DNA of 64,000 nucleotides. Source: Parasulfitobacter algicola. GTDB taxonomy: Bacteria > Pseudomonadota > Alphaproteobacteria > Rhodobacterales > Rhodobacteraceae. Of this stretch, positions 20,905 through 26,414 are shown piece after piece (position 1 is the first letter of the stretch; the number at the start of each line of letters is the position of its first letter). A model generated the notes under the pieces. It was not told the DNA's origin and made no database searches. It worked only from the letters and a program-made list of their open reading frames with translations. The stretch lies in assembly GCF_013315265.1 (NCBI RefSeq), contig NZ_JABUFE010000002.1, positions 62,001-126,000 on the forward strand, written 5' to 3'. The translations under genes were made by a program, and so were the position numbers.

Positions 20905-22440
20905 TCAGACAATCGCTTCTGGTACGCCGGGCAGATTTTTCCCAAATCTGCGGGCAACTGTCAGTGGATAGGGAAGCAAAAAGCCCTTGCGACTTTGCGG
21001 GCTTTGCTTTTTGTTTTGATCCGCCAAAGCACGCCAGGCGGCCACAGCAGTTTCGGGATTGAACAAGTTGTCCGCAGCGTCATCAGGCAACCAATGTTCA
21101 AAACAGCGCTGACGCAGATTTTGAACATCCTGCGGCTTATCCAGGATCACACCAGCTTCGGTATCCCAATTAAAACTTCGGCCGTTCAGATTGGCCGATG
21201 ACACCATTGCAGTGTCATCAAAAATAGAAACTTTTGCATGAACATAAATGATGGGTGCGGCATGAAGCGTATCACGATCATCGCTGTCAAGCTTGCGCGG
21301 TTGGGCCGGGGCACCGATAAAGGCACGTGATCCAAAAGCCTGACTGACGGTCGAAACACATTTTGCCTGAAGATATTCGCCATATCTGATATCTGACGTT
21401 TTACTTCGCTCGAACGCGGCCTCTTCTGGGGCGGCAGGAAGAATTAAGATCAGCCCAAGTGATGGGTTGTTTTTGGCGGCCTGCGCTAACGTATTGGCAA
21501 GCTGCGTATCCCGAAAGAACTGCGTTTCCAGATAGATCAAATTCTGCGCTTTTTTGACCTGATCATAATGAAAATCGGCAATTTCCGTCAATTCGGTGCG
21601 TGGCGATATGGATAGCGCATTAAACTGTTTTGGTCTTGATAAAGTCCGGCGCAGCTGATGTGTGACCGGCGTGGCATACTTTGGGTTTTCAAAGGCCTTG
21701 AGGTGGCTTTCGGCTTCTTTTGCGACGGGCCCTTTGACCAAAAGCTGCATATCATGCCAGGTTTGCGATGCCTCTTGCGCGTGATCCGGATCATCATATC
21801 GGCGATCATTCAAATCAAGACCGCCAATATACAGACGTTCGCTGTCAAAAACGGCCAACTTCTGATGATGTGACGCAGGTATAAGGCCAGGTAAAACACC
21901 CTGTTTTACGGTCAGTTCATCATCCTTGATATCAATGTATTGCTGCAATCCCGGCATCAGTTCCACAGCATCCATCCGATCATTTTTATCAAGATCGTTC
22001 AGTATGTTGATTGTATTTTTCAGCTCATCCCGCGCTTTTTTCATAAATATAATGCGCGGCAAAACCCCAACCTTGGCGGGATGCATAGCCGCTTTGGCTG
22101 TCAAAAGTGCTTCTTGGCCTGATTGTTTGGCGGCTTTGCGCAAAGCACGCATGGTTTCCCATGTTCCTTTGTGCAGCCAAGGCCGTGCGATTGGATCAAA
22201 ATCTGAGACTATCAGATTGATCTGGACACCGCGTGACAATGTATGGACCACCAAATCGAACCAGGTCTTTCCGATTTTTTGGGCAGCAGGCGAACGTAGC
22301 TTTGTCGACAGATCAAAAACACGAAACCCCGCGCGAATGTCTTTTTCCGCTTCCAAAAAGCATGTTTCAAGAACAGGGAACGCTTCGGCTGCAGTCATGA
22401 GGATCTGCACGGATGCAGGATCGTTTTGGTGTGCTGACAT
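20905..22440 (-). CDS. Phospholipase D family protein (two HKD motifs)
   Basis: 511 residues with both catalytic HxKxxxxD motifs: H192-K194-D199 in HHQKLAVFD and H401-K403-D408 in VHAKVSIFD, each followed by the usual GGLDLN or SANLNGRS block. It should act through a phospho-His intermediate on a phosphodiester, lipid or nucleic acid. There is no signal peptide or membrane helix, so a cytoplasmic or peripheral enzyme is likely. Its ATG overlaps the kinase stop by one base (TGATG), so it is the last gene of the nepR-ecfG-kinase operon, an unusual partner for a sigma-factor regulator set. The C-terminal ~60 residues are basic. Confidence 0.9.
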   Translation of the reverse strand: MSAHQNDPASVQILMTAAEAFPVLETCFLEAEKDIRAGFRVFDLSTKLRSPAAQKIGKTWFDLVVHTLSRGVQINLIVSDFDPIARPWLHKGTWETMRALRKAAKQSGQEALLTAKAAMHPAKVGVLPRIIFMKKARDELKNTINILNDLDKNDRMDAVELMPGLQQYIDIKDDELTVKQGVLPGLIPASHHQKLAVFDSERLYIGGLDLNDRRYDDPDHAQEASQTWHDMQLLVKGPVAKEAESHLKAFENPKYATPVTHQLRRTLSRPKQFNALSISPRTELTEIADFHYDQVKKAQNLIYLETQFFRDTQLANTLAQAAKNNPSLGLILILPAAPEEAAFERSKTSDIRYGEYLQAKCVSTVSQAFGSRAFIGAPAQPRKLDSDDRDTLHAAPIIYVHAKVSIFDDTAMVSSANLNGRSFNWDTEAGVILDKPQDVQNLRQRCFEHWLPDDAADNLFNPETAVAAWRALADQNKKQSPQSRKGFLLPYPLTVARRFGKNLPGVPEAIV

Positions 22441-24194
22441 CAATAATCCAACGGTGCGTCTATGAATTCGGATACAGGGAATTCAACCTTGACCTGATAC
22501 GCTTCGTCTGTTTCCTCAATAGTTATACTGCCCTCAAGTTGGCGTGCAAACGCCTGGATCAACTGCGATCCCAACCCGGTTTTGCCCAATACCGGAGGCT
22601 GCGACCCTTTGGAATTTATGATTACCAGTCGGGCATTTACGGTATCAATCAATTCAAGATGTACTTTAATCCATCGTTCATCGTTCGTTTCTGTACCAAC
22701 ATATTTAATGGCATTCGTTATAGCTTCTGACAACAGCAATGACATCGGGACAGCCTGATCGGGATATAGCACAATCTGATCCAGATCGGTTTGCACATCA
22801 ATCGTCGCACCTGGCTGTTCACCAACGACAAGCAACTGATTTGTAATCTCTTTCACCAATATACTTGCATCAACCTGACTAAGGTTTTCCGTTTGATACA
22901 AATTTCTATGTATTGTCGCCAAGCCTAGCACACGGTCCTGCAACCGCTTGACCACATCGATGGTTTCCTGATTAGAGGTCTTGCGCATCTGCATATTCAT
23001 AATTGAACTGATCAGTTGCAAATTGTTTTTCACACGGTGATGCACTTCTTTAAGCAAAACATTTTTTTCACGAACTGAGTCTTCCAATTGTGCTTCTTCT
23101 TCCATCAGGGAATAGGCCATCAATTGAAAGTTTTTTTGCATATCAAGCAATTCAAGAGGCATCATATTGGCTTCTTGCAGATCAGGAAGGCGCCGGTTTT
23201 GCGCAAAACGACGCATTTGCGTACCAAGTTGATTGATGTGTCGCACGACCAAACGATGAACGGAAAAATAAGCTACAATCAAACTCGCTACCCACATCAC
23301 CACCGCGAACAGCATAGGCGAGACAATTGAATTAAAATTAGTAAGCAGCGGGATATTCGGACTCCAGGTTCCCAATGCAAAGACAACGCCCGGCACAATC
23401 GGCACCACGGCAAATTCCCGTTCTTGTCCATTTCGATTAACTCCGGAAAAGACATTGGGTTTTTGTCCGACCAATTCTGCTAACTCTATACCGTCAGGCA
23501 AATGATCTTCCACATTGTCAAACCCACCCTCTGCGGTCAGGATATCGCCATTGGCATTGAAGGTTATCAATTCCAGCGGTGTGCGATCCATAATGCGATC
23601 GCTTGCCTCTGACACGGTTGAATGTGGCACCGAAACTGAAACATATCCGTTAAATTCATCATCCACAAAAAAAGGCTGCATGATAATCAAAACCGATGTT
23701 TGGCTTATAGGTGCATCAAGGTTCACATCAACGTATGGTCTTGGATTTTCGATAAGATCCTGAAATCCAGCAGAACCGGAAAAGTCAAATTCCTGAGTTA
23801 CCGAAGAACAGCGAATAACGCCATCAGTACGTTGTAAACCGATAAATGAATACATTTCAGTTTCATTCAGATATCGTTCAAGATATTGCTGACATCTTAT
23901 CGGATCTTCGCGGATCAACTGCAACACGACACCTAGGGCTTGCGCTGCACCAAACGCATGTTCGACAACCTGCCTTTCTTCTGTTGCAGCGTGTTCTGTC
24001 ATGGCCAGCAGAGACAACTCAGAGCGCTTGCGAACCTCTTCCACAACTTCGGATGTTTGATAAATTGCGATCAAACCAATGGGTAAAAGTGCCATCGACA
24101 GTAGGAAAATTATCCTGATTGCCAATGATTTATGCCATGATCTCCTGCGAGATTTGGCTGTTAATATTGATTTATCAGAGACTGCCTGGACCAT
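22440..24194 (-). CDS. Membrane sensor histidine kinase, HisKA_2 type (probable PhyR kinase)
   Basis: 584 residues from the ATG at 24194. Membrane helices at ~28-46 and ~291-311 flank a ~240-residue extracytoplasmic sensor with cache-like features (YVDVNLDAPIS, FVDDEFNGYVSVSVP). A linker leads to the HisKA_2 dimerisation box EVHHRVKNNLQL, phospho-His most likely H386, then the ATPase domain with LLLSEAITNAIKY (N box) and GKTGLGSQLIQ (G box). HWE/HisKA_2 kinases are the usual activators of PhyR, and this one lies in the ecfG operon. The 5' end overlaps ecfG by 20 bases. A GTG at 24221 is an alternative start; no strong ribosome site distinguishes them. Confidence 0.9.
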   Translation of the reverse strand: MVQAVSDKSILTAKSRRRSWHKSLAIRIIFLLSMALLPIGLIAIYQTSEVVEEVRKRSELSLLAMTEHAATEERQVVEHAFGAAQALGVVLQLIREDPIRCQQYLERYLNETEMYSFIGLQRTDGVIRCSSVTQEFDFSGSAGFQDLIENPRPYVDVNLDAPISQTSVLIIMQPFFVDDEFNGYVSVSVPHSTVSEASDRIMDRTPLELITFNANGDILTAEGGFDNVEDHLPDGIELAELVGQKPNVFSGVNRNGQEREFAVVPIVPGVVFALGTWSPNIPLLTNFNSIVSPMLFAVVMWVASLIVAYFSVHRLVVRHINQLGTQMRRFAQNRRLPDLQEANMMPLELLDMQKNFQLMAYSLMEEEAQLEDSVREKNVLLKEVHHRVKNNLQLISSIMNMQMRKTSNQETIDVVKRLQDRVLGLATIHRNLYQTENLSQVDASILVKEITNQLLVVGEQPGATIDVQTDLDQIVLYPDQAVPMSLLLSEAITNAIKYVGTETNDERWIKVHLELIDTVNARLVIINSKGSQPPVLGKTGLGSQLIQAFARQLEGSITIEETDEAYQVKVEFPVSEFIDAPLDY

Positions 24195-24732
24195 TATTCG
24201 CGACGACCGCCATTGTTGCACTGTCTGTCAATTCCATTGCACCATCGTCATCGAGTGACAAAATTTCCGTCAGTCTTGCCCGCCCTCTGTTGGCACGACT
24301 TTTCACTGTGCCAACAGCGACACCGCACATTTCCGCCGCTTCTTCATAGGAAAATCCTGACGCACCAACAAGTATAAGAACTTCACGCTGTTCAACTGGC
24401 AATGTGTCAAAAGCTTTGCGAAAATCAGCCATTTGAAGATGCCCATCATGGGCAGGCTTTTCTGCCAGACCGGCTGTAAATACGCCATCAACGTCTGCCA
24501 CTTCCCGCTTTAATTTACGACGGCTAGAATAATATGTGTTGCGCAGGATTGTAAAAAGCCAAGCGCGCATGTTTGTTCCGGGGTCAAATTTATCTATATT
24601 CGTCCATGCTTTAACAATCGTGTCTTGCACCATATCATCAGCAGTCGAATTATTTCGTGTCAAACTCATTGCAAATGCTCTTAGGGCCGGTAAATGCTCT
24701 ACCAGCTCGTCACGCGGATCAGCGTTTTTCAT
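24175..24732 (-). CDS. ecfG: ECF sigma factor EcfG (general stress response)
   Basis: 185 residues. Region 2 spans ~10-75 with the -10 recognition helix in MVQDTIVKAWTNIDKFDPGTNMRAWLFTILRN, which is characteristic of ECF15 (EcfG). Region 4 spans ~100-160 with FSYEEAAEMCGVAVGTVKSRANRGR as the -35 helix-turn-helix. It directs RNA polymerase to GGAAC-N16/17-CGTT promoters. It is held inactive by NepR and released when phosphorylated PhyR binds NepR. Its start overlaps the nepR stop as ATGA, giving balanced synthesis of sigma and anti-sigma. The C-terminal ~25 residues after region 4 are a low-complexity tail. Confidence 0.95.
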   Translation of the reverse strand: MKNADPRDELVEHLPALRAFAMSLTRNNSTADDMVQDTIVKAWTNIDKFDPGTNMRAWLFTILRNTYYSSRRKLKREVADVDGVFTAGLAEKPAHDGHLQMADFRKAFDTLPVEQREVLILVGASGFSYEEAAEMCGVAVGTVKSRANRGRARLTEILSLDDDGAMELTDSATMAVVANNGPGSL

Positions 24733-24890
24733 TCTGCGCCGCCTTCGGTCGTGTTGGAATCTTTTGCTTTCAGTTGATTCAGCAAATCCATAAATCGATC
24801 AGGTAATTCCTCTTGCAGCGCTTCTTGATAGACGCGCTTTAAATTTTCATCGATTTGAACTGCTCTTTTATCTGAGCTTTTATCTGTCAT
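24729..24890 (-). CDS. nepR: Anti-sigma factor NepR
   Basis: 53 residues, typical NepR size. The conserved core QIDENLKRVYQEALQEELP followed by DRFMDLLNQL forms the two helices that bind either EcfG or the sigma-like domain of PhyR. The ATG at 24890 was chosen because everything upstream in the open frame is promoter DNA and lacks NepR similarity. It is the first gene of the nepR-ecfG-kinase-PLD operon and is divergent from phyR. It is transcribed from one half of the palindromic EcfG promoter at 24936-24968, so it is autoregulated by the sigma factor it inhibits. Confidence 0.93.
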   Translation of the reverse strand: MTDKSSDKRAVQIDENLKRVYQEALQEELPDRFMDLLNQLKAKDSNTTEGGAE

Positions 24891-24935: not shown

Positions 24936-24968
24936 GGAACCAAACGCACACACGAAACGTTTGGTTCC
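24936..24968. promoter_or_regulatory. Symmetric divergent EcfG promoter pair (phyR / nepR-ecfG)
   Basis: A perfect inverted repeat: GGAACCAAACG (24936-24946), 11-base centre, CGTTTGGTTCC (24958-24968). On the plus strand GGAAC (24936-24940) and CGTT (24958-24961) are 17 bases apart and point to phyR. On the minus strand GGAAC (24968-24964) and CGTT (24946-24943) are also 17 bases apart and point to nepR. Each arm therefore carries one promoter's -35 and the other's -10. Only one holoenzyme could occupy the site at a time. Positions are read directly from the sequence; promoter activity is inferred. Confidence 0.85.
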
Positions 24969-24995: not shown

Positions 24996-25808
24996 ATGCA
25001 AGATAACGCTCAAGCGACGGATCTGACAACACAGATTGGCATACATCTTCCCTTTCTGCGACGGTATGCCCGTGCGCTGACAGGAAGCCAAAACAGTGGT
25101 GACAAATATGCTATTGCCACGTTGGAGGCGATCTTAGAGGACGCATTGGTTCTTGACAGCGAAATGGCAGTGAAAACTGCACTTTTCAAAGCATTTCATG
25201 CAATTTGGCAAACAACGGGCGCACCGGTTTCATCTGAAGAAACGGGTTTGCGCGCCGAAGCACAAAGGCATTTGTCAAAACTGACAACAAACACACGTGA
25301 AGCCCTTTTGTTACACACTGTGGAAGAATTTACTTTTTCCGAAGTAGCAAAAATTATGCAGATCGATACAGTCGAAGCAGAACATCTGATTAAAGTTGCG
25401 CGCCAGGAAATGGAAGATTTTATCGCCGGTTCCGTTTTGATTATCGAAGACGAAGCGATTATCGCCATGGATCTGGAAACATTGGTTGCAGACATGGGCC
25501 ACCGTGTCACCGGCGTGGCACGCACCAGAGCCAGCGCGCATGACCTTGCCAAATCCGATCATCCAGATTTGATTTTGGCAGATATCCAACTTGCAGATAA
25601 TTCGTCTGGTATAGATGCTGTAAACGACATTCTGTCCGAACTGGGTGACCGTCCAGTGATCTTTATAACCGCATTTCCTGAACGTTTGTTGACAGGGGAT
25701 CGACCAGAACCTGCCTTCTTGATCTCTAAACCTTATACAGAGGATCAGGTTCGATCCGCAGTCAGCCAAGCAATGTTCTTTTCTTCAACCGAAACGCTGA
25801 AGGCCTAA
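24996..25808 (+). CDS. phyR: Response regulator PhyR (sigma-like domain plus receiver)
   Basis: 270 residues, the master switch of the alphaproteobacterial general stress response. Residues ~10-140 are an EcfG-like domain (region 2-like then region 4-like, FTFSEVAKIMQI) that sequesters NepR. Residues ~146-262 form a receiver with acidic pocket ED at 151-152, phospho-acceptor D196 in ILADIQLAD, T225 in FITAFPERLLTG and K245 in SKPY; FITAFPERLLTG is the FATGUY-type motif of PhyR receivers. The start at 24996 follows AAAAAGG by 8 bases; the frame upstream is promoter. It is followed by a strong bidirectional terminator shared with dps. Confidence 0.96.
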   Translation: MQDNAQATDLTTQIGIHLPFLRRYARALTGSQNSGDKYAIATLEAILEDALVLDSEMAVKTALFKAFHAIWQTTGAPVSSEETGLRAEAQRHLSKLTTNTREALLLHTVEEFTFSEVAKIMQIDTVEAEHLIKVARQEMEDFIAGSVLIIEDEAIIAMDLETLVADMGHRVTGVARTRASAHDLAKSDHPDLILADIQLADNSSGIDAVNDILSELGDRPVIFITAFPERLLTGDRPEPAFLISKPYTEDQVRSAVSQAMFFSSTETLKA

Positions 25809-25861: not shown

Positions 25862-26359
25862 TTATTGCTTTGCAATCGCTTTCAGCATCCATGCCGCTTT
25901 TTCATGAAACGCGGACCTTTCTGTCGCCAGATCTTCGGTCACAGGATCATTTCGTTCACCCGCCAATTCAACCAGAGCATGAAGTCTGTGCGCAATTTTT
26001 TCGTGATTTTCAGCAAGATCTTCACACATTTTGCCAGCGGAAGGTAATTCATCCATATCGGTAATGACGGAATTCTCCACAATATCACTAATTTTCATTG
26101 GGGCCATTTTACCCAAGGCACGAATACGCTCGGCAATTTCATCGGCTGCCTTGAACATATTTTCATACTGTTCTTCAGTCAGATTGTGAACCGAATAAAA
26201 CAGCGGGCCTTCGACATTCCAATGATACGCATGTGTCTTGAAAAGAAGACGATATGTATCTGCAAGAATATCTGCCAGCCCTTCTGCAACACCTTCAACA
26301 TTGCGTACGCCGCTTTGAACGCTGTTTTCTTCGGGAATAACTTTCAGTGCATCTGTCAT
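25862..26359 (-). CDS. dps: Dps/ferritin-like DNA-protection protein
   Basis: 165 residues of the Dps family: dodecameric ferritin-like shells that oxidise and store iron and protect DNA. The ferroxidase signature is present: FKTHAYHWNVEGPLFYSVH with His at 43/46 and 58, then ADEIAERI with acidic ligands near 73-77. An AAGGAG ribosome site precedes the ATG. An exact EcfG promoter lies 30-55 bases upstream, just beyond the stop of the acetolactate synthase-like gene. dps is a classic member of this stress regulon. It is convergent with phyR. Confidence 0.93.
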   Translation of the reverse strand: MTDALKVIPEENSVQSGVRNVEGVAEGLADILADTYRLLFKTHAYHWNVEGPLFYSVHNLTEEQYENMFKAADEIAERIRALGKMAPMKISDIVENSVITDMDELPSAGKMCEDLAENHEKIAHRLHALVELAGERNDPVTEDLATERSAFHEKAAWMLKAIAKQ

Positions 26360-26388: not shown

Positions 26389-26414
26389 AACGTCTTGACG
26401 ATCTGTATTGTTCC
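26389..26414 (-). promoter_or_regulatory. EcfG-type promoter for dps
   Basis: Minus strand: GGAAC at 26414-26410, 17-base spacer, CGTT at 26392-26389. Implied leader about 23 bases, containing the ribosome site. Confidence 0.8.

Follow-up and report, generated by a model that had tools for sequence, protein, structure and literature searches.

Divergent promoters that overlap and share DNA are familiar from tetR/tetA and from lambda PRM/PR, where they stand under repressors. The element described here, from the phyR-nepR gap of Parasulfitobacter algicola, differs from these in that the same alternative sigma factor, itself one of the products, would drive transcription both ways.

For the alphaproteobacterial PhyR-NepR-EcfG system, the usual layout given in the available portions of two accounts (PMC4814048, PMC8103513) has phyR divergent from nepR-ecfG with both units under EcfG-type promoters, and our locus agrees with that description in gene content, in divergence and in the predicted EcfG-type control of both units. 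The same portions make no mention of bases shared between the promoters or of promoters in mirror image, and the literature searched (mostly outside subscription journals, and partly as excerpts) yielded no description of overlapping or palindromic phyR/nepR promoters; within that literature the divergent EcfG-controlled pair is known and its interlocking apparently undescribed. An element built in the same way, also 33 bp long, does lie in a phyR-nepR gap of Rubellimicrobium thermophilum DSM 16684 (L382, 876-908), presumably the GSR' gap because PMC12148442, in the text available, reports a single NepR. The promoters of Fig. 4 in that paper were predicted by consensus; its main text, as available, contains neither "overlap" nor "divergent", and its section 5 makes no mention of symmetry.

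In DNA design the element resembles the bidirectional promoters known from E. coli and further bacteria (Warman, Grainger and colleagues; PMC12825309, PMC10268837), which the available text describes as likewise symmetric DNA, offering polymerase two exclusive orientations and producing divergent RNAs. Those promoters share a near-symmetric -10, with starts usually 18 bp apart (7-25 bp) according to the same text, whereas the element here has separate -10s, each beside the opposite -35, predicted start sites some 30 bp from each other, judging by the -10 positions, and, as its sigma factor, an ECF factor from the locus itself. Its two -10 boxes (24943-24946 and 24958-24961) are disjoint, unlike the shared reciprocal -10 by which Warman et al. 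recognize their class. It is a real and widely conserved feature, akin to a symmetric bidirectional promoter, at a well-known locus, and it would extend such promoters, described in the available text with a shared -10, to an ECF sigma factor and a different geometry. In Pseudomonas syringae, binding of HrpL holoenzyme at hrpJ represses hrpL itself, whose divergent promoter depends on sigma-54 (PMC5263251, from the portion available). As there described, the hrpL-hrpJ region is similar in that an ECF holoenzyme at one promoter blocks a divergent own-gene promoter, in negative autogenous control, but the blocked promoter is a sigma-54 one, whereas here the same ECF sigma factor is predicted to act both ways through shared bases.

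The element between phyR and nepR

The gene for PhyR, a response regulator and anti-anti-sigma factor of 270 aa (24996-25808, +; Pfam PhyR_sigma2 2.9e-23, PhyR_sigma-like 5.8e-13, Response_reg 8.4e-12), is separated by 105 bp, with the element inside, from the gene for the 53-aa anti-sigma factor NepR (24729-24890, -; Pfam NepR 1.1e-15, the sole NepR match in the genome). The 3' end of nepR shares four bases with the frame of ecfG (24175-24732, -), which encodes an ECF sigma factor of 185 aa (Sigma70_r2 1.9e-18, Sigma70_r4_2 1.1e-15) whose next best match within its own genome has 37% identity; we apply the name EcfG because nepR and phyR adjoin. Downstream of ecfG follows a gene for an HWE/HisKA_2 sensor histidine kinase (22440-24221, -, start codon uncertain; HisKA_2 6.9e-22, HWE_HK 1.8e-08). 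A PhyR with sigma-like and receiver domains, a NepR and an ECF sigma factor, the components of a PhyR-NepR-EcfG partner switch, are encoded together here.

The element itself (24936-24968, with no strand of its own) has two 11-bp inverted arms, 24936-24946 and 24958-24968, which are exact reverse complements, around an 11-bp centre (24947-24957) that is asymmetric; the original prediction had spoken of a 33-bp palindrome, a description that suits the arms but not the whole 33 bp. GGAAC-N17-CGTT is complete on each strand, with a spacer of 17 both ways, so that both coding strands carry an EcfG-type promoter by the consensus GGAAC-N16/17-CGTT upstream of a GSR gene (as in the available text of PMC7083833, PMC3892343 and PMC12148442). 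By pattern match, the phyR promoter would comprise a -35 box GGAAC at 24936-24940 and a -10 box CGTT at 24958-24961 (both +), and the nepR-ecfG promoter a GGAAC at 24964-24968 and a CGTT at 24943-24946 (both -). Each 11-bp arm, as originally predicted, contains one promoter's -35 plus the other promoter's -10, and the mirror symmetry would exist because two promoters of one sigma factor interlock. The assignment of these promoters to phyR and nepR-ecfG is borne out by the position of the element, in the gap between the PhyR gene and the NepR-EcfG operon as recognized by Pfam, and by the consensus match in both directions. Start codons lie 27 bases from the element on the phyR side and 45 on the nepR side, which would make for short leaders and leave the element itself mostly untranscribed. 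Around aligned 32- and 33-bp elements from the family, A-rich stretches just outside the arms are mildly conserved: an A-run downstream of the phyR promoter and a weaker mirror T-run opposite, approximately where start sites would fall.

Symmetry alone is not noteworthy, because the element is one of 12 inverted repeats with arms of 11 nt or more in the 64-kb window (the whole stretch of DNA that was analysed), at a distance limit of 25. The composite pattern, 18 fixed bases over 33 bp with up to three mismatches, matched once in the window, and one match was reached by 1 of 100 dinucleotide shuffles. The single-promoter pattern GGAAC-N16-18-CGTT had 8 matches in the window, where shuffles averaged 1.43 and never exceeded 6. 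Across the organism's own genome, single-promoter matches (82) were not above the reversed control (101 and 99), so a match to one promoter carries little weight taken alone.

Distribution in the Rhodobacteraceae and beyond

Our family sample held 394 Rhodobacteraceae genomes, nearly all of different genera (393 by tally); relatedness was handled by this near one-per-genus sampling, and the counts below ignore the tree. PhyR was found at E<=1e-45 in 189 of the 394. A first set of 155 phyR copies, including one from outside the family (L030), had 153 with a divergent upstream nepR and 2 without a NepR match. Re-search of 46 genomes whose copies were incompletely represented in that set added 45 upstream stretches; two copies from G334 were also included and L030 was removed. 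The final set has 201 copies and covers 188 of the 189 genomes with PhyR; two matches were set aside, the G155 copy, which is interrupted by the end of a contig, and one in G183 that is a C-terminal fragment. In a fixed stretch upstream of each phyR we scored as a pair any GGAAC...GTTCC of 31-34 bp whose two -10s had no more than four mismatches in total, a criterion into which exact -35 boxes are built, so that their invariance is by construction.

Divergent nepR accompanied 195 of the 201 family copies, and at 172 of these 195 loci we found the interlocked pair of 31-34 bp, which by this criterion was absent at 23; shuffled DNA gave such a pair 5 times in 19,500. A chance origin of the pair was ruled out by this comparison of family conservation with shuffles. 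Pair length was 32 bp in 101, 33 bp in 58, 31 bp in 12 and 34 bp in one, with spacers of N16/N16 in 66 of the 101 at 32 bp and of N17/N17 in 43 of the 58 at 33 bp. Both -10s were exactly CGTT in 91 of 172 pairs and NGTT in 150. In the first set, both promoters were exact at 73 of the 153 loci, all 73 interlocked; three further pairs at other offsets were counted beside them. When length was allowed to range from 26 to 41 and mismatches to fall anywhere, no more than one of the 18 fixed bases was mismatched at 118 of the 153 loci (one outside the family) and no more than two at 141, a few of these at 27-28 bp; the 153 shuffles all had four or more mismatches of 18.

Arm conservation in relatives, the expectation that went with the original prediction, is borne out at the 172 of 195 divergent family loci but fails close to home: L002, the best phyR match in the sole same-genus genome (75% identity), has a gap with neither EcfG promoter. 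At the second phyR copy of that genome (L145 in G001) the pair is present with a single altered -10 base. The contrast within G001 between L145, with the pair, and L002, with no EcfG promoter, suggests differently controlled paralogues.

The likeness of the arms might also be mutational in origin, maintained by quasi-palindrome correction. Two free arm bases do agree slightly more often than when shuffled (100 of 135 against a mean of 91.8, and 74 of 135 against 63.5), but the effect is small and the statistic ignores relatedness and base composition, and the five inner mirror positions tested had no excess agreement; we regard such an origin as extremely improbable.

In the family sample the pattern also keeps to genomes with PhyR. 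A strict version with a centre of 6-16 gave 65 sites in 64 of the 394 family genomes, 39 of them 32 bp long, 26 of them 33 bp and none of any other length, and its reversed control matched in 1 of the 394. All 64 genomes were among the 189 with PhyR, and none among the other 205. A scan of named genomes gave at least 116 stretches, 80 of which are listed, 65 of these being 32 or 33 bp long; among the matches listed, 61 of the 65 were at a phyR/nepR locus. Sixty of the 65 listed had phyR within 600 bp, 59 of them together with nepR or ecfG; L383, also among the matches listed, has its site at the end of the available stretch with phyR near, and the listed match in L349 has nepR and ecfG beside the site, near a contig end. 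The other four of the 65 listed, three Methylobacterium sites and one Marinobacter site, were without a nearby phyR match. Listed matches of other lengths (28-31 and 34-38) were near phyR in 0 of 15 cases and had scattered hosts. Neighbourhoods were tabulated for L039 and L186 as well, outside the listed 80.

Other alphaproteobacterial families in our sample arrange the two promoters differently. In a class sample, PhyR at E<=1e-35 was found in 63 of 385 genomes (own family included), and we examined 66 copies, 63 of them from other families and one only 102 bases long. NepR was divergent within 600 bp at 32 of the 63 other-family copies, by a profile built from the family of the window that may miss NepR elsewhere. 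The interlocked pair of 30-34 bp was found at 0 of these 32 divergent loci; 16 of the 32 nonetheless had both promoters (NGTT allowed at the -10). Ten of the 16 had their -35 boxes back to back, 6-9 bp apart (8 bp in 7 of 10), three, from one genus, had a 27-bp coincident palindrome (L223-L225), and in three the promoters were further apart. The interlocked layout of 31-34 bp is a family trait in this sample; compact layouts of different kinds occur in other groups. Constant in form is the back-to-back layout (L195, L199, L204, L206, L208, L210, L212, L214, L215, L217); in the 27-bp coincident GGAAC...GTTCC, -10 and -35 fall on the same bases, and this version occurs in the one genus of a second family and at L169, L174 and L277. 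A relaxed pattern matched 3 of the 385 class genomes, two of them from the window's own family. The third, G596, was rejected as a phyR-nepR locus, its PhyR being on another contig; beside the site an open frame runs for up to 179 aa, receiver-like by eye, with 30% identity to the PhyR query.

Inverted arms are typical of operators, and on that account the repeat might be read as a binding site for a dimeric regulator and not as promoters. But the arms contain exactly the -35 and -10 boxes of EcfG promoters, spaced by N16 or N17, the same boxes are non-palindromic at the 10 of 16 other-family divergent loci with both promoters that are back to back, and, among the matches listed, none of the 15 composites of other lengths is near phyR, so we consider an operator very unlikely.

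A larger share of our doubt goes to a reading in which both promoters work and their overlap has no regulatory role: the arrangement would have arisen once, in a short gap at the base of the family, and interlocking would since have prevented drift. The geometry is self-locking, in that an indel in the centre alters both spacers, and the prevalence of N16/N16 at 32 bp and of N17/N17 at 33 bp fits this, as does the back-to-back rather than interlocked layout at 10 of the 16 two-promoter divergent loci of other families. Against it, full overlap is also found as the 27-bp coincident pairs (L223-L225; L169, L174, L277), a hint, though no proof, of repeated evolution. We hold this frozen compactness to be possible, if on balance doubtful.

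Loci without the pair

The phyR copies with no NepR match within 600 bp had the pair in 0 of 6 cases; one of the six is cut by a contig end (L308), and two have a 27-bp pair further upstream (L284, L296). Two genomes keep phyR and nepR apart (L107 and L256 in G214; L122 and L257 in G103). In both, phyR has one exact EcfG promoter with no mirror promoter or palindrome, and the single NepR gene, elsewhere in the genome, is likewise preceded by one exact EcfG promoter that lacks a mirror copy. Symmetry, by these single promoters, tracks the divergent arrangement and not either promoter.

The 23 divergent family loci without the pair were classified with one -10 mismatch allowed. Twelve have the nepR-side promoter alone (L019, L083, L113, L254, L273, L275, L276, L287, L291, L292, L294, L299), two have a pair with one -35 mismatch (L023, L103), one a weak nepR-side match (L026), three the 27-bp version (L169, L174, L277, all in the window's family) and one a weak 30-bp version (L290); at L002, L181, L304 and L305 we found neither promoter. 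Among decayed pairs, the nepR side is retained at 12 loci and the phyR side at one (L103).

The 12 of 23 loci with a nepR-side promoter only would be expected if a single promoter were active and its mirror copy a by-product. In most loci, however, neither motif has decayed (the -10 is exact on the phyR side in 128 of 172 pairs and on the nepR side in 110), and the separated genes of G214 and G103 each retain a promoter of their own; we think a single active promoter unlikely.

Choice of direction by EcfG-polymerase

Given the sequence, the promoter matches on both strands, the family-wide pair with its spacing, and the absence of the pair at the examined phyR copies lacking nepR, we consider it likely that the element is two complete interlocked EcfG-dependent promoters, onto which EcfG-polymerase loads either way but not both ways at once, with initiation split by promoter strength. 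The two -35 to -10 spans occupy almost the same 33 bp, so that an EcfG-polymerase bound in one direction should keep out a second, and the recurrence of this layout in most of the family members examined suggests that a single polymerase has to take one direction or the other each time. Active EcfG-RNA polymerase would load in one orientation to transcribe phyR and in the other to transcribe nepR-ecfG, one at a time; both units would be autoregulated by the sigma factor that they control, and the relative strength of the two promoters would decide how initiation events are divided between them. In a simple occupancy model of this kind, the ratio of PhyR to NepR/EcfG transcripts would be constant at any level of active sigma factor, and total firing would be capped.

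Identical core sequences had been proposed to fix the ratio of PhyR to NepR/EcfG. When the two promoters were made to differ fivefold in strength in an equilibrium model, overlap kept the output ratio at 5 at all sigma levels, whereas with independent promoters it fell from 4.96 to 1.04. Overlap by itself holds the ratio in the model, and the identity of the cores is both unneeded and not general (both -10s are exact in 91 of 172 pairs). The model makes it plausible that overlap renders the ratio sigma-independent when the promoters differ in strength. The bistable switch that had also been envisaged found no favour in modelling: bistability arose in 44 of 20,000 random parameter sets when the promoters were independent and in 22 when they overlapped, 19 sets being common to both.

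As to what interlocking might be for, we suggest tentatively, leaning somewhat against it ourselves, that the forced choice of EcfG-polymerase would fix PhyR synthesis relative to NepR/EcfG over the whole stress range and keep the switch responsive while it amplifies itself, a benefit for which the layout would have been kept in most of the family and overlap reached elsewhere in another geometry. Interlocked promoters cannot slide apart intact, so the constancy of their geometry shows use of both promoters rather than selection for exclusion, and it may partly reflect lock-in.

What is known of E. coli bidirectional promoters bears on both exclusion and its consequences. According to the available text of PMC12825309, RNA polymerase is unable to bind these promoters in both orientations simultaneously, they compete only under strong activation, no competition occurred at basal activity at the five promoters tested, and the single promoter examined for noise became less noisy through competition. 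By analogy, such competition would be expected at a stress locus that is strongly induced and amplifies itself. Here, both products would feed back on the polymerase making the choice. The interlocked promoter could be a testable way for DNA layout alone to set the stoichiometry of PhyR and NepR/EcfG independently of sigma level, and the natural variants (interlocked, back-to-back, 27-bp coincident and separated) form a ready comparison set.

Elsewhere in the window, an exact EcfG-type promoter match (26389-26414, -) precedes a ferritin-like gene (25862-26359, -) that we take to be Dps. With eight EcfG-type matches against 1.43 expected, the window may contain a local cluster of stress genes.
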